From a virus, in the IMG/VR virus record IMGVR_UViG_3300036766_000675, positions 1-38,460 of that record: 38,460 bases of DNA. One strand, written 5' to 3'. Within the stretch, counting starts at the first letter, position 1; every line of letters starts with the position of its first letter. Shown here one piece after another: positions 1,326-37,871 of the stretch. The position numbers were made by a program, and so were the translations under genes. The notes below the pieces were generated by a model that worked only from the letters and a program-made list of their open reading frames with translations, was not told the DNA's origin and did not search any database.

Positions 1326-1496
1326 TTAAGGAGCCCCAGGCCATTTCTGCTTGCAACAAGGGCACACAGACAAAGACTGATTGATGATCTCCTCGACGTA
1401 ACTGGAGTAGTTTTTCAACTTCTTGAGCTCCTTAATTACGTGTGGGTGAAGAGCGACTGAGATGCGACCTTTTGGTTTGAACTTTTTGTTTGCCAT
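1326..1496 (-). CDS. Ribbon-helix-helix regulator candidate with a Cys cluster (56 aa)
   Basis: The minus-strand ORF runs from ATG at 1496 to TAA at 1328-1326. A basic N-terminus is followed by a strand (RISVAL), a helix (HVIKELKKL), a turn (NYSS) and a second helix (YVEEIINQSL). This is the strand-helix-helix order of Arc/MetJ-type dimeric repressors. It ends with CPCC, which may bind a metal. The gene lies divergently next to the ParB-like gene at 1553, a natural place for a regulator of that operon. No Shine-Dalgarno is visible, but a candidate promoter lies directly upstream, so the message may be leaderless. Most RHH proteins are of similar size. Confidence 0.65.
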   Translation of the reverse strand: MANKKFKPKGRISVALHPHVIKELKKLKNYSSYVEEIINQSLSVCPCCKQKWPGAP

Positions 1497-1502
1497 GAAA
1501 AT

Positions 1503-1531
1503 CATATAGCGGTAATAAATTCAGGAAGCAA
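1503..1531 (-). promoter_or_regulatory. Candidate sigma70-like promoter for the RHH gene
   Basis: Read on the minus strand, TTGCTT (1531-1526) is followed after 17 nt by TATATG (1508-1503). The predicted start of transcription falls about 6-7 nt further on, at or next to the ATG at 1496, so the message would be leaderless. The match to consensus is partial. Confidence 0.4.
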
Positions 1532-4509: not shown

Positions 4510-4546
4510 TTTTACCTCCCCTTATATTCGTTTTAAGCGTTAAGGG

Positions 4547-4575
4547 CTTATAACAAAAATAGCGTGATATTACAA
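4547..4575 (-). promoter_or_regulatory. Sigma70-like promoter for the DUF5131 operon
   Basis: On the minus strand TTGTAA (4575-4570) is followed after exactly 17 nt by TATAAG (4552-4547). Transcription would start near 4540, leaving a leader of about 30 nt that carries GGGGAGGT before the ATG at 4509. The region is AT-rich and diverges from the rightward promoter at 4636. Confidence 0.65.
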
Positions 4576-4635
4576 AAATAATACTGTGTTAATTTTTCAG
4601 TCGTGATTTGGCATATTTACCCACGATGAATTACT

Positions 4636-4664
4636 TTGACGCGAAGCGCCTTAGAGGGCATAAT
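4636..4664 (+). promoter_or_regulatory. Sigma70-like promoter for the zinc-protein/ERF operon
   Basis: TTGACG (4636-4641), a 17-nt spacer and CATAAT (4659-4664) give a near-consensus promoter. Transcription would start near 4671, at the foot of a small hairpin (CGGTCG 4674-4679 with CGACCG 4688-4693) in the short leader of the gene at 4711. Together with the leftward promoter this makes the 201-bp gap 4510-4710 a divergent control region. Confidence 0.7.
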
Positions 4665-4710
4665 AGATACATACGGTCGTAATAACGCGACCGAAAACGG
4701 GAGAAAAAAA

Positions 4711-4890
4711 ATGAAACATTTAAGTAAAGCCGACCGTCGTAAAGTAGCACTTAAAGCAGCCCGAAGCCGTCGAGCGAACGATAAGGCTCGAAAAATGGCA
4801 GCCGTTAAGGCTTGGGTTAAGCGATATATGAACGACCGCGATTACGCTGCGGCTCGGGAACAACGCGCCGACCTTAAAAAATTGGCTTAA
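4711..4890 (+). CDS. Small, very basic protein (59 aa)
   Basis: The ATG at 4711 is preceded by GGGAG with suitable spacing; earlier in-frame starts would lie in the promoter. The product is strongly basic and apparently a single helix or pair of helices (KADRRKVALKAARSRRANDK, VKAWVKRYMNDRDYAAARE). This composition suits binding to DNA, RNA or an acidic partner, but no family is recognised. It is the first gene after a near-consensus promoter and is followed by a weak terminator, so it may be expressed above its downstream neighbours. Confidence 0.6.
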   Translation: MKHLSKADRRKVALKAARSRRANDKARKMAAVKAWVKRYMNDRDYAAAREQRADLKKLA

Positions 4891-4898
4891 GTTAACGA

Positions 4899-4918
4899 GC
4901 CCACGGACGGGCGTTTTT
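4899..4918 (+). terminator. Weak intrinsic terminator or attenuator
   Basis: GCCC (4899-4902) pairs with GGGC (4909-4912) around a 6-nt loop and is followed by GTTTTT. The stem is only 4 bp, so it more likely attenuates than fully ends transcription before the genes downstream. Confidence 0.4.
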
Positions 4919-4932
4919 ATTGGAGGTATGCT

Positions 4933-5100
4933 TTGAAGCGAAAAACGAAGCCTTTAAAAGCACGTAAAAATAAAAACACCGGATATCCTTGCCCATTATG
5001 CGGGAAGCCGAATCAGTTTAAGGTAAAACAACGAGCCGTAAACTGCCTCGACTGTATAATTAACTTTGGCCATATAGATACGCCTTACGGTGGCAAGTAA
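4933..5100 (+). CDS. Small zinc-ribbon protein (55 aa)
   Basis: GGAGG at 4922-4926 points to a TTG start at 4933. The nearby ATG at 4928 stops after two codons. The N-terminus is very basic, and CPLCGK and CLDC follow, forming a classic four-Cys zinc ribbon. It is one base from the next start. The likely role is nucleic-acid binding; no specific family is recognised. Confidence 0.6.
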   Translation: MKRKTKPLKARKNKNTGYPCPLCGKPNQFKVKQRAVNCLDCIINFGHIDTPYGGK

Positions 5101-5101
5101 A

Positions 5102-5260
5102 ATGAAACCCTCGTGCCCTGGTAAAGCGTGCAACCTTTGCGGTCTTAAATACGAGCGCGTGCCTGACGATGCGGTACCGTGGACGCACGACGGTCAAATA
5201 TGCGGCTGGCTTTGGTTGTGCCGATGCGGAACGAGCCTATTATTTAAAATACGACTGTAA
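5102..5260 (+). CDS. Small cysteine-rich protein (52 aa)
   Basis: The ORF opens with ATG 5102, directly after the stop at 5098-5100, and encodes CPGKACNLCG near the N-terminus and CGWLWLCRCG near the C-terminus. Six cysteines in 52 residues, arranged as two clusters, suggest a zinc-binding fold. There is no good Shine-Dalgarno, so translation would depend on coupling to the upstream gene. The function is unknown. Confidence 0.5.
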   Translation: MKPSCPGKACNLCGLKYERVPDDAVPWTHDGQICGWLWLCRCGTSLLFKIRL

Positions 5261-5280
5261 TACCCTTGCAAAGCCTTAAG

Positions 5281-5311
5281 CCTCGCGCTATTACCCTGCC
5301 TTAAAGCGAGG
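5281..5311 (+). promoter_or_regulatory. Hairpin masking the ribosome site of the ERF gene
   Basis: CCTCGC (5281-5286) pairs with GCGAGG (5306-5311), and the second arm contains the Shine-Dalgarno GAGG used by the ATG at 5318. A G-U pair can extend the stem. This could lower ERF translation until a factor or ribosome movement opens it. It is inferred from pairing only. Confidence 0.4.
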
Positions 5312-5317
5312 TAAAAA

Positions 5318-17182: not shown

Positions 17183-17677
17183 ATGGCTGGAAAAAATACA
17201 AGAACCAGAAGCGTCGCTACTAAGAGTTTATTTGAGTCCGCTCAAGGCGTTATCAGCGCTGCGGTCTCATTGAACCAAGGCGACTTTGCTATTCTCAGCT
17301 CTAACCTTTTGGCGGCTCCGGCGGCTGAGGGTGATGGAGCCAACCTGTTGGGCGTAATGCGTGACGATGTGGTACTCGGTAAACTCCGACGTCCATATTC
17401 CACGGATGTTGACGCATCTGCTGCGGTCTCCGATGTTGGTGGCCCTCAGTATGGCGACGTGTTCAAGTGTCAGCTTAAAGCTGGCGACAGCTTGAGCCCC
17501 GGAGACAAAGTTTACCTGCATCCTGCGACCTCAAGTCGTGGCGTTCAGGCTTCCGGAACCAAGGCAATTGGTATTTACCAAGGCGCCTCTGCTGTCACTG
17601 GCGGGCCCAGTGATAACCTGACAGAAATCGAATGTCTCATCGGCGCTCGTTTTCCTGACGACGTCCTGAAGTTTTAA
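17183..17677 (+). CDS. Capsid decoration/cement protein candidate (164 aa)
   Basis: GAGGTGAC precedes the ATG. The small beta-rich protein has DFAILSSNLLAAP, GANLLGVMRDDVV, AGDSLSPGDKVYLHPA and GTKAIGIYQGAS. These recall DUF2190-like cement proteins, in which GD-V/LY-W/H and G-A/V/I-A motifs recur. It lies directly before the major capsid gene, the usual site for a decoration protein. The call rests on motif resemblance and position. Confidence 0.65.
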   Translation: MAGKNTRTRSVATKSLFESAQGVISAAVSLNQGDFAILSSNLLAAPAAEGDGANLLGVMRDDVVLGKLRRPYSTDVDASAAVSDVGGPQYGDVFKCQLKAGDSLSPGDKVYLHPATSSRGVQASGTKAIGIYQGASAVTGGPSDNLTEIECLIGARFPDDVLKF

Positions 17678-17687
17678 GGGGGAAAAT

Positions 17688-18860
17688 ATGAACCTAAGAG
17701 AAAGAAACTTGGCGACTATTAAAAAAGCCGTTGAAACTACTCCCGAAGTAAAAAGCTTCATGGAGTCGTTGAAACGACGCACTGGATTGGATGCCTCCGA
17801 TCCCAAGACCTTCCCGGTCCATGAGTCCGGATTTTCTTGGAAGGCTGTGAAAGAAAAATGCGAACTCAAAGAGGCTGACGCCTCTTCTGCCTTCGTGCAA
17901 TTCCTTCGCGCTGGTATTCAGACTTTGACTAACTCGATGTACCAATCCCATCCGACAACGTTTGAGGAGTGGGTCACCGTAATTCAGTCAAAGCTTGATA
18001 CTGAGCTCTATCCTACAAACCAAGGGATCGGTTTTCCCCGACAGATTGGGTATAATGAACTATACCCTGAAGTCGGAGCCGCAGCTTTGGATCTTCAATT
18101 GAAAAACCTTAAGTTCGGAACGGTGTACGCTGTTCAAAAGGAACTTTTGGAGAATGATCAATCTGGATCCTTCCAAGCCCAGGCCGGGAGAATTGGTGAG
18201 TACATGAAACTACTCGCTGAAGTTCTCTGCTATGGTAAGTTGGCCTCGGTAGCAAATATGCAGTACATTGATTACAAAATCCCAACATCTGAAACGAAGC
18301 CGAGTTATGAGGCTACCTGGCCCTACTCTCAGGCTTTGCGTGGTGGTGGTAAAAACCGTCCCGCAAGTTTCGGTGCGTTGAGTGCTACCACGATCCAAGC
18401 TGGACGCGTGGCCTTGATGAACCAAAAGAATTTGCAAGGCATCAAGATGTCAGTGCAGCCCAAGCGTTTGATCGTTGGGCCTAACAACGAGCTTGACGCT
18501 GCCACGATCTTGAACTCGACCTGGTACCCGTCCAATCTGGCCGGTGTTGCCGGAGCTCCTGGACAAGTCGGTGCGGTCAACTTCTTGAAAGGTTTATTGC
18601 AGCTCACAGTCAGCCCCTACGTTTTCAAAAACGACGGGACCGTGGCTGGAGACTCAAAAGCATGGTGGATTGCCGACGATGGTAAACCATTCTTTGTTCT
18701 GCAATTACGCGAGGTCGCAACCGTGGAACAAGAGGCCGTAAACTCCGGAGAAAGTTTCAACCGGGATATTTATCGCTTTAAAGGTCGTTCTCAGATGAAC
18801 GCTGACTTCATTGACAGCCGTTTCGTTTGGCAAGGTAACGATGGAAGTATCACGACCTAA
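17688..18860 (+). CDS. Major capsid protein, Mu gpT / HK97-fold type (390 aa)
   Basis: A strong ribosome site (AGGGGGA) and a terminator directly after the gene suit a highly expressed protein. The N-terminal 70 residues are a charged helix of the delta-domain kind that may be removed by the protease. FEEWVTVIQSKLDTELYPT and TVYAVQKELLENDQSG match the Mu-like major head protein pattern, as do the P-domain-like stretches KRLIVGPNNELDAATIL and KPFFVLQLREVATVEQEAV. The size is normal. It assembles as the capsid shell. Confidence 0.85.
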   Translation: MNLRERNLATIKKAVETTPEVKSFMESLKRRTGLDASDPKTFPVHESGFSWKAVKEKCELKEADASSAFVQFLRAGIQTLTNSMYQSHPTTFEEWVTVIQSKLDTELYPTNQGIGFPRQIGYNELYPEVGAAALDLQLKNLKFGTVYAVQKELLENDQSGSFQAQAGRIGEYMKLLAEVLCYGKLASVANMQYIDYKIPTSETKPSYEATWPYSQALRGGGKNRPASFGALSATTIQAGRVALMNQKNLQGIKMSVQPKRLIVGPNNELDAATILNSTWYPSNLAGVAGAPGQVGAVNFLKGLLQLTVSPYVFKNDGTVAGDSKAWWIADDGKPFFVLQLREVATVEQEAVNSGESFNRDIYRFKGRSQMNADFIDSRFVWQGNDGSITT

Positions 18861-32940: not shown

Positions 32941-33380
32941 ACAAACCAACAAAAATTATACTGCATTGTGCCGCAAGTCCTGACTATGAGCCTGAGGATC
33001 CAAAGTTTGATCACGTCACGGCTCAAGTAATTGATAAGTGGCACCGTGAGCGAGGCTTTGACTGCATTGGATACCATTGGGTTGTCAGGCGTTCAGGGAT
33101 AGTTGAGAAGGGACGTCCTGAGTCTCAAATTGGAGCTCATTGTTTGGGGCAGAATGAGGCCTCTATTGGCATCTGTTGGGTTGGAACGCATAAACCCACG
33201 CCCGCACAGATCAACGCACTGGACGCGTTTTACAGGCGTTTCCAGAGTGAAAAACAATGGGGACCTGAGTCTTGGCATGGTCACAACGAGTTTACGAACA
33301 AAGAGTGCCCTGGGATCTCAATGGAATGGCTTAGGCTGCATTTTATTTCACTTGAGACCGGAGAGAGCGTCGATGATTAG
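32937..33380 (+). CDS. N-acetylmuramoyl-L-alanine amidase, endolysin (147 aa)
   Basis: The amidase_2 / T7 lysozyme pattern is clear. His10, His116 and Cys124 are the zinc ligands and Tyr46 and Lys122 the catalytic pair; the spacing from His116 to Cys124 (8) and to Lys122 (6) matches T7 lysozyme His122, Cys130 and Lys128. Other blocks are ILHCAAS, GYHWVVRRSG and GAHCLGQN. It cuts the bond between muramic acid and L-alanine. There is no signal peptide or binding domain, so it needs a holin. It overlaps the upstream membrane gene by 4 bases. Confidence 0.95.
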   Translation: MNKPTKIILHCAASPDYEPEDPKFDHVTAQVIDKWHRERGFDCIGYHWVVRRSGIVEKGRPESQIGAHCLGQNEASIGICWVGTHKPTPAQINALDAFYRRFQSEKQWGPESWHGHNEFTNKECPGISMEWLRLHFISLETGESVDD

Positions 33381-34376
33381 GGCTCTTTTTTTGTTTACCT
33401 TATCAAGTGTTAAGTTCTCCAGTATGTACTTCCAAGACTCATTGGACGCTGCGTGTAATTTCGACCTGTCTTCTTTTGCCTGACAAATCATTTCATCGAG
33501 CGTATTTCGGAAGTCTTTGTCGGAGTCGTAACTTTTTATTCCTGGCATGGTCCACTCAGGCCACCGCGGTGCGATGGTGGCGGCTCCGGCCATTGTTCCT
33601 TCGATCCAAGCGATGTTTGACTTAGACTTATTGAACGTGTTGTCAGCCAGTGGGACGATAAGAATATCCGGACGGAAGGCTCGCATGGTCTTATGGAACT
33701 TGATTACGTCAGAGGGTGAGATATCAACACCGTTTTCGATGCACTTAACGATCCACCACGGTCTAAAGCCGTGAAAAATAAATTTTACGTCAGGATGTTT
33801 TTTGGCGACCTCGACTATTTCGAGCCCGTAATCTGTTAGATCGGCTTGGTGGTGTTTGGATCCTCTCCAGTAAACCCGGATCTCCTCGGAACGCTCTGCC
33901 ATATTGGTGCCAGACCTATCACGCCACGGGAAAAATTCTGCTGGTATTGCGTTGGGAACTATTTGAAGTAATCCCTTTGCCAAGCCTTTGAGTTTTTCAT
34001 AGAGATCGGGAGTTGATACGCTTACAGCGTCAGCGTGTCTGACCATGTGAGCGATGCGCTGCTTTACGTCTTTGTCCATATAGGTATCGAAAGTAGCGTT
34101 GTCGATTGGGATATTAAAAAGATCGTCGTCGTAATCGAGCCAAATCTTTGTGCCTGTAGCTCTGGCGTTCTCAAAAATGTCTAAGTGCTGAAGGCTGAAC
34201 GGTCGTTGCATGAAAACGATATCAGAGAGTGCGAGTTCAGCCCAGGACACTCGATCGACGTGCATATAGATTAGGTTAACGTCACGTCTGGATTTTCTGA
34301 GTCTGCCAAGAGGTCCGGTGTGACGCCAGAACGCGCCAGAGGCTGAGATGCTATCAACGACCATTACTATGTCCAT
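33348..34376 (-). CDS. GT-B-type glycosyltransferase (342 aa)
   Basis: Begins DIVMVVDSISASGAFW, a Rossmann-like first strand. It has KIWLDYDDDLFNIP, VSVSTPDLYEKLK and PNAIPAEFFPW in the middle, and KSNIAWIEGTMAGAATIA near the C-terminus, the place of the E-X7-E donor-binding motif of GT4-like enzymes. Family GT4-like enzymes transfer sugars from nucleotide donors to glycans. It is the last gene of the leftward cassette. Its 3' end overlaps the endolysin gene by 33 bases head-on. Likely modifies host or phage surface glycans. Confidence 0.75.
   Translation of the reverse strand: MDIVMVVDSISASGAFWRHTGPLGRLRKSRRDVNLIYMHVDRVSWAELALSDIVFMQRPFSLQHLDIFENARATGTKIWLDYDDDLFNIPIDNATFDTYMDKDVKQRIAHMVRHADAVSVSTPDLYEKLKGLAKGLLQIVPNAIPAEFFPWRDRSGTNMAERSEEIRVYWRGSKHHQADLTDYGLEIVEVAKKHPDVKFIFHGFRPWWIVKCIENGVDISPSDVIKFHKTMRAFRPDILIVPLADNTFNKSKSNIAWIEGTMAGAATIAPRWPEWTMPGIKSYDSDKDFRNTLDEMICQAKEDRSKLHAASNESWKYILENLTLDKVNKKRALIIDALSGLK
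33362..33392 (+). terminator. Intrinsic terminator at the end of the lysis genes
   Basis: AGAGC (33364-33368) pairs with GCTCT (33382-33386) over a 13-nt loop that contains the amidase stop, extended by G-U and A-U pairs. A run of seven T (33386-33392) follows. It lies in the overlap with the end of the leftward glycosyltransferase gene. It would separate the late operon from the leftward cassette. Confidence 0.6.
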
Positions 34377-34378
34377 TG

Positions 34379-34588
34379 TTACCCTTCCATTTTTTGAGGT
34401 ATGGTGAGCTCTTTAATTTGATCTATGAGTTGGCGTTTTACGTGATCCAATGTGAGTTCAATTGAAGTTTCGTTTTCCTCAGAGATTGAAATACGCATCG
34501 TGTTCATTCTAACAACGACTTCGACCTTATCCTCTCCGTCAATATAATCACGGCGTCGTTCTATTCCAATTCGGAAGTGACCGATCAT
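34379..34588 (-). CDS. Hypothetical small protein between glycosyltransferases (69 aa)
   Basis: ATG 34588 overlaps the end of the GT2 gene by 4 bases. The protein is charged, with strands and a helix (KVEVVVRMNTMRISIS, LTLDHVKRQLIDQIKELT). No signal, membrane or metal-binding motif. The tight coupling on both sides supports expression with the glycosyltransferases. The function is unknown. Confidence 0.55.
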   Translation of the reverse strand: MIGHFRIGIERRRDYIDGEDKVEVVVRMNTMRISISEENETSIELTLDHVKRQLIDQIKELTIPQKMEG

Positions 34589-35337
34589 AGTGGATCTCTT
34601 AAGGTAGGCAGCGTTTCACGAATACCTATTTCGTGGTAATTTTTTACCCGCTCTCCCATGAGTTGAGCATTTCGAGTGAGTGACTCGTCTTTCATTCGTC
34701 GGTAATCGGAGTCCTCTCCGACGTCGTGAACGATGTGGTTTGATTTTAAAATTGTATTCGGAACGTAAAAAGAATTGAAGCCTGCGAGGTTGACTCTATT
34801 ATTAAAATCGGAGTCCTCAAGTCCATACGGGTAAAAAGCATCGCAGAAAAATCCGAGCTCTTCGATCAAGTGGCGTTTGAACATACATACTCCGAAAACC
34901 TTATCGAGTACTGGAGTGAGCCAGTGAGCTACAACTCCGAATTTTCTGTCAATGGGTGGCATACCTGAATGTCCCCAGTCAATTCCGCAAATACCTGGGT
35001 TTGGGATATTATCTAAATAAGCGATCATAGTCTTGGCCCAATTGGGTGGCAAAAGAATATCGTTTCCAAGCAGACAGATGTACTCGCCAGTGGAGCGTAA
35101 AAAAAGTTGATTGAACGCGCGGCCCACTCCCTCGTTGACTGAGTTAACTCGATGGTATGCTGGCTTTACTTGATCTTGAACAAACTCAACGATACGCTTA
35201 TCGGTAGAGCCGTTGTCTGCGATTAGGAGCTCTCCGTCTTCGTGTCCTGAGTGCTGGATATTATTTGCGAGCACCGCGGGAGTGACGTCGAAGCGGTCCA
35301 AAGTTATCATGAGACAAGATAGTTTACCTTTAATCAC
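34585..35337 (-). CDS. Family 2 glycosyltransferase (250 aa)
   Basis: GT-A fold with LSCLMITLDRFD, LIADNGSTDKRIVEF, VNEGVGRAFNQLF, GEYICLLGNDILLPPNW (the DXD-like site) and FYPYGLEDSDFNNRV, the ED motif of inverting GT2 enzymes. The order and spacing are typical of rhamnosyl- or other O-antigen glycosyltransferases. GTG 35337 overlaps the preceding small gene by 4 bases. It would act with the GT-B enzyme to add sugars to a glycan or lipid. Confidence 0.85.
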   Translation of the reverse strand: MIKGKLSCLMITLDRFDVTPAVLANNIQHSGHEDGELLIADNGSTDKRIVEFVQDQVKPAYHRVNSVNEGVGRAFNQLFLRSTGEYICLLGNDILLPPNWAKTMIAYLDNIPNPGICGIDWGHSGMPPIDRKFGVVAHWLTPVLDKVFGVCMFKRHLIEELGFFCDAFYPYGLEDSDFNNRVNLAGFNSFYVPNTILKSNHIVHDVGEDSDYRRMKDESLTRNAQLMGERVKNYHEIGIRETLPTLRDPL

Positions 35338-35567
35338 GCGTTGATTTCTCCCTCACCTACAGGCTTGATAAGTTTTACGGCTTCGTCAACTGTTTTCATA
35401 TCATCTTCGGACTTTGCGTTTGTGTATCCGTTATTCAAAATAAGCTCTTTGGCTGAGTCAAATCCGTTGAGCCAAGCCTCCTCGTATATTTTTTGATAGA
35501 GCTGTTCATCGTCGTAACTGAAGCGTTCCTGAGCTCGTTGAGACGCCCAAAGTTCCTTTTGCTTCAC
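35334..35567 (-). CDS. Hypothetical small protein in the glycan cassette (77 aa)
   Basis: GTG 35567 overlaps the acyltransferase stop by 4 bases. A charged, helical protein (QRAQERFSYDDEQLYQKIYE, DMKTVDEAVKLIKPVGEG). No known domain is visible. Its coupling to the genes on both sides suggests a role in the same process. The function is unknown. Confidence 0.5.
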   Translation of the reverse strand: MKQKELWASQRAQERFSYDDEQLYQKIYEEAWLNGFDSAKELILNNGYTNAKSEDDMKTVDEAVKLIKPVGEGEINA

Positions 35568-36220
35568 TTTTTTCGCTCCTCATCTCTGAATTGAAACCGA
35601 GCCACGTATATCGCTCGAAGCTTGGCGATCTTTTCACCATTGAGTTGAGCCTTATCGAGTGCGATTTTATTTTCTTTAAGGAAGCGGGCGGGATTACCGA
35701 CGTAGATATTACCCGGAAGTATTGCAGTCGTTTTGTTGGCAATGGCTCCCATCCCGAGCATGGCGTGAGCGCCGATGAGACATCGCTGGTGAACCATTGA
35801 ACCAAGCCCTAAGTTTGAGCCTTCACCGATTTCGGAGTGCCCACCGAGGAGTACTGAGCATGAGATCGTTACGTCGTTATGAACGATTACGTCGTGCCCT
35901 GCGTGCGAGTTTCTGAGCATTATTACACCATCACCAATACGGGTAGCGCGGGAGGTTCCAGAGTTGATCGTTACAAACTCCCGGAAAATGTTTTTTGAAC
36001 CAATGATAACGCCAGCGCCGTCAATTAAAAAGTGTTCACGACTCTCTGGCGGAGCTCCGACTGACACGTAGGCTTCAAACCTGTTGTTGTCACCTATTTG
36101 AGTTTCACCTTGGATTAGACAAAATGGACCTATGAAATTGTAGTCGCCTAGTTTTACCTTAGGCCCGATCAACGCGGTATGGTGTATTAAGTTTGTACGA
36201 CTCTTAAAATATCCGTCCAT
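35564..36220 (-). CDS. LpxA-like left-handed beta-helix acyltransferase (218 aa)
   Basis: Hexapeptide repeats run from about residue 12 to 160. The LpxA-type core is present: IFREFVTINSGTSR (78-91), SHAGHD (105-110), GGHSEIG (126-132) and VHQRCLIGAHAMLG (143-156). His106, His109, His128 and His144 keep the exact spacing (3, 19, 16) of His122, His125, His144 and His160 of E. coli LpxA, His125 being catalytic. The protein is 218 residues against 262, so most of the C-terminal helical domain is missing. LpxA adds a hydroxyacyl chain to UDP-GlcNAc, the first step of lipid A. A different sugar-nucleotide acceptor is possible here. Confidence 0.85.
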   Translation of the reverse strand: MDGYFKSRTNLIHHTALIGPKVKLGDYNFIGPFCLIQGETQIGDNNRFEAYVSVGAPPESREHFLIDGAGVIIGSKNIFREFVTINSGTSRATRIGDGVIMLRNSHAGHDVIVHNDVTISCSVLLGGHSEIGEGSNLGLGSMVHQRCLIGAHAMLGMGAIANKTTAILPGNIYVGNPARFLKENKIALDKAQLNGEKIAKLRAIYVARFQFRDEERKK

Positions 36221-36226
36221 TTCGCC

Positions 36227-36694
36227 TCACCTGAATAAATTACCTAGCGCAAAACTCTCATAATTGCCAAGGTATTCTCCATCCAGGGGAGAGACTGACT
36301 CTCCGGTCTTTAATTTTTTAAGCTTTGAGGCGTCGTAAAATACGACGTGGTTATCCTTTCGGAACCAGATAAGAAAACCCGCTCGGCATTTCATGTGCTC
36401 AATGGAGTCAAGGAACTCGATTTGATGAGGGGATTTTATGTCAGACTTTGAAAAAGTATTCTTATCAACGGTCTTACAGTCAATGAAAACTGAGAGCCCA
36501 AGGCTGCATAAAATATAATCGAAAGGTGTCTTGACTGGGATCCACTGGCGCATTGAGGCAATGAACCTAGCGCCGTTTGGGATCTTAATTGGAAGTACTC
36601 CCTGCATACGACACTGAAGCTCCAGAAGGCTCTCGAATTGCTTGCCCTGGAGTACTGCGGCTGAACCAGCCCTGCTCCTCCAATGTTTGCTCAT
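36227..36694 (-). CDS. RecU-like Holliday-junction resolvase / PD-(D/E)XK nuclease (155 aa)
   Basis: Shows GKQFESLLEL (Glu21), TPFDYILC (Asp59), VFIDCKT (Asp72-X-Lys74) and SPHQIEFLD (Gln91), then AGFLIWF. This is the order of active-site residues of RecU-type nucleases. Such enzymes cut four-way junctions during recombination and packaging. It is first in the leftward cassette, without a clear Shine-Dalgarno before ATG 36694. Its promoter lies so close that the message may be leaderless. It could work with the ERF protein. Confidence 0.75.
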   Translation of the reverse strand: MSKHWRSRAGSAAVLQGKQFESLLELQCRMQGVLPIKIPNGARFIASMRQWIPVKTPFDYILCSLGLSVFIDCKTVDKNTFSKSDIKSPHQIEFLDSIEHMKCRAGFLIWFRKDNHVVFYDASKLKKLKTGESVSPLDGEYLGNYESFALGNLFR

Positions 36695-36702
36695 ACTTAC
36701 AA

Positions 36703-36729
36703 AATCTATTTATTACGACGGTGCGTCAA
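36703..36729 (-). promoter_or_regulatory. Candidate promoter of the glycan cassette
   Basis: On the minus strand TTGACG (36729-36724) is followed after 15 nt by TAGATT (36708-36703). The spacer is short, but the -35 box is near consensus and equals that of the promoter at 4636. Transcription would start near 36696, only one or two bases before the ATG at 36694. Confidence 0.5.
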
Positions 36730-36742
36730 GGGAAATAAATTA

Positions 36743-36778
36743 GGTCCCAGATCCAGAAGTTAATCTAGACCTGGGACC
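36743..36778 (-). terminator. Hairpin terminator-like element on the minus strand
   Basis: Read on the minus strand, a 15-bp stem forms with two G-U pairs and a 6-nt loop. Its outer arms are GGTCCCAG and CTGGGACC. TAATTTATTT follows directly. On the plus strand the two G-U pairs become A-C mismatches, which favours the minus strand. It would stop leftward transcription entering the cassette from the right. Confidence 0.55.
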
Positions 36779-36840
36779 AGTCTGTTTCACGAGTCGAAGG
36801 AGCATTTAATTGGGACATGCGAGCTATAGAAGTAATCGGT

Positions 36841-36883
36841 AAAAAAAAACGGAACTTGAGCGAGGCACCACAACAAGTTCCGT
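36841..36883 (-). terminator. Strong intrinsic terminator, leftward
   Basis: CGGAACTTG (36850-36858) pairs perfectly with CAAGTTCCG (36874-36882), extended to 10 bp by an A-T pair. On the minus strand it is followed directly by nine T (36849-36841). This would end a leftward transcript coming from the hairpin-rich region, for which no gene is known. Confidence 0.7.
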
Positions 36884-37060
36884 CAACATGGGGATGTTCC
36901 AGATAAGGAACTGGCGGAAGTTATGATTTAGTGTTCATGGAGTCAACACCAAAATTAAGCCAAACTTAAACCAAGGTCTATTATGAAGTGCGTCACACAA
37001 TTATTACGATCTTACGTAAAGAGTCAGGACCTTAATAATACAACGCCCGGAAAATTCTTT

Positions 37061-37090
37061 TTGACAGAATAAGTCCGGGCGTCATATGGT
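37061..37090 (+). promoter_or_regulatory. Candidate rightward promoter in the structured region
   Basis: TTGACA (37061-37066), a perfect -35 box, is followed after 18 nt by TATGGT (37085-37090). A transcript from about 37097 would carry the structured part 37107-37451 and then the small genes. The -35 box lies in the loop of the 37043-37082 hairpin. Confidence 0.4.
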
Positions 37091-37507
37091 TTTGTTTGCA
37101 ACAACAAAGTTGGATCTAGTCTTCCTTTAATCAATCCAACTTGTCAAGCACTCGATGCAAAGCCTCGGCGAGTATAACTACAGGCTTCGGATTTCAGTAA
37201 TGGAATAGGACACTGGACAAAAAGAGCCGTGGTTAAGTTTGCTACTACGACGGGAACCATATCTTCCGGTGTCTGGCATAGAGAATAGTGATAAGGGGAT
37301 TTAGGGATAACGTACCGGGAACAAAAGATACCGGACCTCAATTCGCAAGCTTCAGAGGTGAAAGTCACTTTGAACGCCTGGTGAGAAAGTGCCCCAGGAA
37401 TTACGTGTCCAGCCCTTAAAAAGATTCTTGAGCAGTAACGTAGGGGGACACAAGTGTGCCTGCCTGATAGCCCGTCGTGTATCTTAAAATAAGTGTGTAA
37501 AAATGAT

Positions 37508-37536
37508 TTGATTTTAAAGTGTGACGGAAGTAATAA
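37508..37536 (+). promoter_or_regulatory. Candidate promoter of the small-gene operon
   Basis: TTGATT (37508-37513) is followed after 17 nt by TAATAA (37531-37536), 27 nt before the leader ORF. The -10 match is only moderate. It would read the operon that crosses the window seam into 170-1280. Confidence 0.4.
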
Positions 37537-37563
37537 GGCAGTAATAAAAAGGAGTGTCCGGCG

Positions 37564-37605
37564 ATGAATGAACTGTTGGATTTGTTAGAAGAGTTAAGTC
37601 TATGA
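37564..37605 (+). CDS. 13-codon leader ORF
   Basis: GGAG about 10 nt upstream precedes ATG 37564, encoding MNELLDLLEELSL, leucine and glutamate rich. Its stop overlaps the ATG of the next gene (ATGA at 37602-37605). It may be a translational coupling leader, or a leucine-sensing attenuator given five leucines in thirteen residues. The peptide itself has no known family. Confidence 0.45.
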   Translation: MNELLDLLEELSL

Positions 37606-37871
37606 CCCGCAAAGAAGAGACTGAGGCAGCGGCCAAAGAAAACATCTTAGGATGGGGTGAAAACGCGCACATGATTTTTAAATTAGGCGCTGAGTGGGCT
37701 GACCAAAACTTACCCGACTCTTTCAAAGAACTTTTAAGAGAGAAGGACAAGTTTAGTCGGGCACTAGAACAAAAGGTCATGCTACTTGAGGAGCAGTTGA
37801 AATTAGCATTGGAAACTATCAGGGATCTGCTTGCGGACAAAATCACCGCGCTGGCAAAGGGGGATGAGTGA
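37602..37871 (+). CDS. Hypothetical helical protein (89 aa)
   Basis: Coupled to the leader ORF by ATGA and to the repeat protein by GTGA. A soluble helical protein: EETEAAAKENILGWGENAHM, EWADQNLPDSFKELLREKD, then a coiled coil (about 45-85, ALEQKVMLLEEQLKLALETI). No family is recognised. It is co-translated with the alanine-rich protein, so the two may act together. Confidence 0.6.
   Translation: MTRKEETEAAAKENILGWGENAHMIFKLGAEWADQNLPDSFKELLREKDKFSRALEQKVMLLEEQLKLALETIRDLLADKITALAKGDE

Follow-up and report, generated by a model that had tools for sequence, protein, structure and literature searches.

An 869-nt hairpin-rich non-coding gap in a siphovirus record: a probable early control region

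Introduction

Why would a compact phage genome hold 869 consecutive nucleotides that seem to encode no protein? The question is raised by IMG/VR virus record IMGVR_UViG_3300036766_000675, which was analysed over its full 38,460 nt (hereafter the window). A preliminary description of this sequence had drawn attention to a gap rich in hairpins near the right end, and had proposed a large structured phage RNA as one explanation, with an opposing pair of RNAs and a long leader as the alternatives. Divergent early control regions are known from siphoviruses, with the lambda immunity region as the type. In phage ICP1, an RNA of about 800 nt from a space without ORFs is the most abundant transcript, as seen by RNA-seq (PMC7567579). 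Proximity to tRNA islands is frequent, but not obligatory, for the large RNAs GOLLD and ROOL (PMC12286853). Here, the coding status of the gap, its excess of hairpins, its promoter-like and terminator-like sequences and the divergent layout in related phages were computed directly.

Results

Extent and coding status of the gap

The gap spans 869 nt, bounded on the left by the start codon of a RecU-like gene on the minus strand (36694) and on the right by the first ATG of the rightward strand that a good Shine-Dalgarno sequence precedes (37564). It is flanked by a leftward RecU/glycan block and a rightward early operon.

36695-37563, no strand: divergent intergenic region between genes on opposite strands, non-coding according to ORF scores and six stop-masked frames
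36227-36694, minus strand: gene for a RecU-like Holliday-junction resolvase, first of the leftward block (Pfam RecU, 4.6e-8; PHROG 843, 2.5e-17)

We compared per-codon coding scores of the ORFs within 36695-37563 with those of shadow ORFs (mean -0.121, 95th percentile 0.001) and real genes (mean 0.118, minimum 0.033), and found no ORF with a convincing coding character. The longest ORFs in the gap, of 74 and 43 aa, scored -0.155 and -0.084 per codon, respectively, and most scores were shadow-like. Three ORFs slightly exceeded the shadow 95th percentile, at lengths of just 15-29 codons, and are unconvincing. When the gap was translated in six stop-masked frames, no match was found in Pfam and the best E value in PHROGs was 0.42, and a decayed known gene was rejected on these grounds. 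ARAGORN detected no tRNA anywhere in the window (38.5 kb). The window has another divergent gap, at 4510-5317, which on inspection seems to contain small genes.

Hairpin excess and folding

Perfect stems with loops of at most 40 nt were counted in the gap and in 200 dinucleotide shuffles of it. Four stems of at least 8 bp were observed against 0.40 expected, and three of at least 9 bp against 0.1 expected; 0 of the 200 shuffles reached these numbers. Stretches of equal length elsewhere in the window contained 0-2 perfect stems of at least 8 bp each. These counts bear out the preliminary description in two respects, namely that the 869 bases are hairpin-rich and, together with the coding scores, Pfam and PHROGs, that they hold no convincing ORF. 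Its figure of at least eleven stems reflects a real excess, but the number itself varies with the cut-off (seven perfect stems of at least 7 bp), and the excess is confined to four hairpins within 36743-37142. Hairpins near the promoter and at the right end of the gap were placed as follows:

37038-37087, minus strand: hairpin of 14 bp with an inner 5-bp stem, in which both plus-strand mismatches are G-U pairs on the minus strand
37107-37142, no strand: perfect 9-bp hairpin with an 18-nt loop, which starts the predicted rightward leader and is weakly terminator-like leftward
37446-37559, plus strand: long interrupted hairpin (GGACAC/GTGTCC, CTGCCT/AGGCAG and inner stems) that extends into the Shine-Dalgarno sequence

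Folds of the whole gap were more stable than those of shuffles (plus strand z -2.87, minus strand z -4.29), which, with its size and ORF-free setting, is compatible with a single large RNA. The distribution of the signal argues against it. On the minus strand, the stretch from 37150 to 36840 folded with z -4.94 (0 of 100 shuffles equally stable; plus-strand z -2.48), and its MFE and centroid structures were concordant on the main helices; these values point to a leftward RNA. Part of the stability is supplied by a terminator, as the minus strand from 36995 to 36884, which excludes it, gave an unremarkable z of -1.18. The right half folded like random sequence. Sliding-window z values in 37120-37440 were mostly near zero on both strands, with chance-level folding in 37143-37440, and the plus-strand fold of 37096-37445 had z 0.01. 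The predicted leader plus the short ORF that follows it (37097-37606) was equally shuffle-like (z -0.35), and the 114-nt hairpin at 37446-37559, with z -1.06, lies inside the shuffle range and alone does not exceed chance. These values leave unsupported the large plus-strand RNA that had been suggested for the right side.

The same description had held that, on the right, three G-U pairs favour a plus-strand RNA. Where structure is strong, we found the opposite. The four long, imperfect hairpins within 36743-37142 contained 8 mismatches, of which 6 were A.C on the plus strand and thus G.U on the minus strand only, and none were G.T on the plus strand. Elsewhere in the window this class makes up ~28% of the mismatches by a hand count, which yields p ~0.008. 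Hence, the wobble bias toward the minus strand, which favours a leftward RNA, is modest or moderate.

Rightward promoter, leader and early operon

The following features were identified on the right side of the gap:

37061-37090, plus strand: sigma-70-type promoter TTGACA-18-TATGGT, predicted start ~37097
37097-37563, plus strand: predicted untranslated leader of the early operon, ~467 nt, placed from the promoter and the first ORF
37564-37605, plus strand: leader ORF MNELLDLLEELSL of 13 codons, with AAGGAG upstream
37602-37871, plus strand: first early gene, 89 aa, with a positive coding score and no convincing family match

The TTGACA/TATGGT promoter named in the preliminary description is indeed present, and ranked 3-4 among the 76,868 positions scored on both strands of the window by a rule that assumes a sigma-70-like polymerase in the host. 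Its -35 box sits within the hairpin at 37038-37087 (stem 37042-37082), the most stable hairpin of the gap. This promoter would start the early operon ~467 nt before its first ORF. A long untranslated leader would then precede the 13-codon ORF, which would be coupled to the first gene; the stop codon TGA of this ORF and the start codon of the first gene overlap as ATGA. From the gene content of relatives, we infer that the right-hand block consists of early genes. Hairpins in an early leader near the promoter offer, by description, a possible parallel to the put leader RNAs of phage HK022 (PMC9378689). In contrast to HK022 put, a search of the predicted leader (37097-37563) yielded no rightward terminator that would need to be overcome.

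Both ends of the contig (1-173 and 37868-38460) lie in one Ala-rich tandem-repeat ORF of the AAWAAARDAA type, in the same frame. Therefore, the map behind the linear record is probably circular or permuted, with the break lying in the repeat, and the operon to the right of the gap would resume at window position 1. Neither a repressor nor an operator could be identified in the phage; a 59-aa ORF at 1326-1505 (minus strand) looked ribbon-helix-helix-like by eye.

Leftward terminators and the RecU/glycan block

On the left side, the features all point toward the RecU-like gene:

36840-36884, minus strand: intrinsic terminator of textbook form, with an 11-bp stem, a loop of 15 and then T9; it includes the hairpin named at 36849-36883
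36743-36778, minus strand: 15-bp hairpin followed by TAATTTATTT, a second, weaker terminator-like site
36840-37164, minus strand: putative leftward non-coding RNA or RNAs, with the 3' end at the T9 terminator

Both hairpins had been named before, and leftward termination ahead of the RecU/glycan block is supported at the sequence level. The stem at 36743-36778 is unbroken on the minus strand alone, where two G-U pairs complete it. By a single rule, eight minus-strand terminator-like sites were detected in the window, two of which (36884 to 36840 and 36778 to 36743) fall in the gap, where 0.18 would be expected from its length. They would halt leftward transcripts ahead of the block, which would seemingly be driven by its own weak promoter beside its start codon. 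Since no leftward gene lies just to the right of the terminators, the RNA that they end most likely runs leftward and is non-coding. Candidate leftward starts were found at ~37164, ~37111, ~36993 and ~36911; their promoters are weak or at best middling, ranking about 60-175 in the window. A leftward non-coding RNA of about 70-325 nt could thereby overlap the rightward promoter and reach ~50 nt into the leader.

No clear Shine-Dalgarno sequence precedes the RecU-like gene. A promoter-like TTGACG-15-TAGATT has its predicted start at ~36696, ~2 nt before the ATG, and the mRNA is possibly leaderless. A hexapeptide transferase and a family-2 glycosyltransferase are also encoded in the leftward block. 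Two proteins of its glycan-modification part (33348-36220, minus strand) have relatives in one related phage, G012 (33% and 54% identity), where their orientation relative to the structural genes is different; hence, the glycan cassette moves within the phage family.

Searches for homologues and RNA families

Rfam gave no match at gathering threshold in the whole window, and at E<=10 the stretch 36600-37700 yielded just three chance matches to eukaryotic snoRNAs. No homologue of the gap was found in phage and plasmid records, although close relatives of the record may be missing from the sets searched. The same result was obtained in 22 related records, by blastn and nhmmer across 217 loci, and via two exact DNA seeds in IMG/VR. 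The RecU-like and gene-1 proteins retrieved nothing when used as bait in IMG/VR. In GTDB genomes, RecU likewise gave nothing, and the portal profile, with which hosts or prophages were sought, found none. With respect to antisense immunity RNAs of the P1/P4 type, there was no C4-type Rfam match, and for leader complementarity of this type the best repeats of the gap elsewhere in the window were no better than those of control stretches.

Divergent gaps in related phages

About 60 related IMG/VR contigs were reached solely by terminase and portal profiles, and 22 of them were fetched whole. The complete relatives have collinear structural genes, and at the equivalent position their leftward and rightward blocks are separated by a gap of 57-567 nt. 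The 869 nt of the window form the longest divergent gap among those compared. Sequences read by eye placed an HNH-type nuclease as the leftward gene at the gap in three relatives and an RNase H-like protein in one, and Erf-like, YqaJ-like and HTH proteins among the rightward genes in several.

In three relatives (G004, G008 and G009), the divergent gap contains a terminator-like hairpin on the rightward strand. Their stems differ, and the loop TAAAA(A)GTC is common to all three:

L191:10588-10632, plus strand: shared-loop hairpin
L114:3344-3388, plus strand: shared-loop hairpin
L183:17281-17328, plus strand: shared-loop hairpin

The window and 13 relatives were scanned whole or nearly whole for this loop, with at least four A, in stems of at least 6 bp with 4 G/C. 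It occurred in a qualifying stem at these three gap sites alone; the hairpin was sought in the window and is absent from it. Rfam gave no match to it in any of the three relatives. Their alignment revealed changes on both sides of the stem, with pair counts that are indicative only, as the G004 stem is off by one base. These hairpins suggest that rightward leaders of the phage family carry regulatory RNA hairpins, and the shared-loop hairpin is possibly such a regulatory leader RNA.

Two further observations concern single relatives. Before the Erf-like gene of G008, at L191:10728-10798 (plus strand), Rfam gave a sub-threshold match to DUF3800-IX RNA (22.2 bits, gathering threshold 36.8, E 0.026). 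In G011 (L197, about 17627-18197), an ORF-less stretch follows a 372-aa ORF, and part of it resembles, by eye, most of a reverse-complemented tRNA-Leu gene. This sequence is a possible attachment site, which, if true, would imply temperate members in the family.

Discussion

The preliminary observation of a non-coding, hairpin-rich gap is confirmed, and its interpretation is partly supported. Its fallback readings, a pair of opposing RNAs or a long leader, agree with our results, whereas a single large RNA is unlikely, as the right half folds randomly. The best explanation, which we hold to be probable, is an early control region in which a long leader is combined with leftward terminators acting as insulators, on a probably circular siphovirus map of ~38.5 kb. 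The gap lies between divergent blocks with early genes on one side, and, at the sequence level, it has a strong promoter directed toward these genes. It thereby resembles the divergent control regions of siphoviruses, which likewise combine opposite blocks, a non-coding gap with promoter(s) and terminators, and early genes downstream. In contrast to the lambda type, no CI/Cro pair or operators were identified here, the gap is unusually long, and the window contains no sign of lysogeny. From these features we infer transcription of the gap, the leader, the insulating role of the terminators and a leftward RNA.

Several points argue against a control region. The gap exceeds that of every relative, and a plain promoter function leaves its excess length unexplained. 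Furthermore, a promoter within the most stable hairpin would equally suit an operator or an inverted repeat acting at the DNA level. The candidate leftward promoters are weak, no repressor or operator came to light in this phage, the rank of the rightward promoter presumes a sigma-70-like polymerase, and no homologue of the gap was found.

The main product of the left half might instead be a separate leftward RNA, structured and functional, of about 155-325 nt (starting at ~37164 or ~36993 and ending at 36840), a possibility that we regard as real but rather unlikely. Such an RNA would work in trans, or as an antisense to the beginning of the early leader, in the manner of short leftward phage RNAs with an intrinsic terminator at their end. 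Besides the stable minus-strand fold and the wobble bias, it would account for a clean T9 terminator that no nearby leftward gene explains. Against it stand the modest size of that bias, the contribution of the terminator to the stability, the weak promoters and the lack of a homologue. A more specific version is more doubtful still: an abundant ~300-nt leftward RNA (about 37160-36840), ended at T9, that would regulate the early operon through its overlap with the promoter and leader of the operon, in a family where this site holds another leader hairpin in relatives, one whose stem changes are paired.

The inverted repeats might also act as DNA, in a replication origin or a protein-binding region, as their occurrence at the promoter and the position ahead of the early genes would allow. 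We consider this improbable. DnaA boxes were not enriched: the gap has a single site with 1 mismatch, and the window has 22 against 26 expected. A DnaA-box origin was rejected on this basis. Moreover, a repeat search of the gap found no iteron array, and no stretch was notably A+T-rich (local GC 0.39-0.47).

Least probable by our estimate is that a single large non-coding RNA, structured and about 500-850 nt long, fills the gap: ICP1 offers a precedent without tRNA neighbours, in a compact phage genome with a roughly 0.9-1 kb ORF-less gap (PMC7567579), and GOLLD and ROOL share the length class and phage context (PMC12286853), but any RNA from our gap is putative, the above-chance structure of the gap is limited to the left part, strong terminators and a strong promoter lie inside the gap, and neither Rfam, the ~60 related contigs nor phage or plasmid records provided a match. 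Kinship with GOLLD, ROOL or OLE, a possibility raised earlier, is not supported by the covariance models, and the tRNA island is lacking as well.

If the gap is merely an early control region, it is ordinary, yet it locates the probable early switch in a phage family that has been reached only through metagenome contigs, and it shows where to seek the regulatory RNA of this family. If the leftward RNA is real, it would be a regulatory RNA that is structured but has no relatives in Rfam, and the shared leader hairpin of the relatives would become a testable regulatory element.
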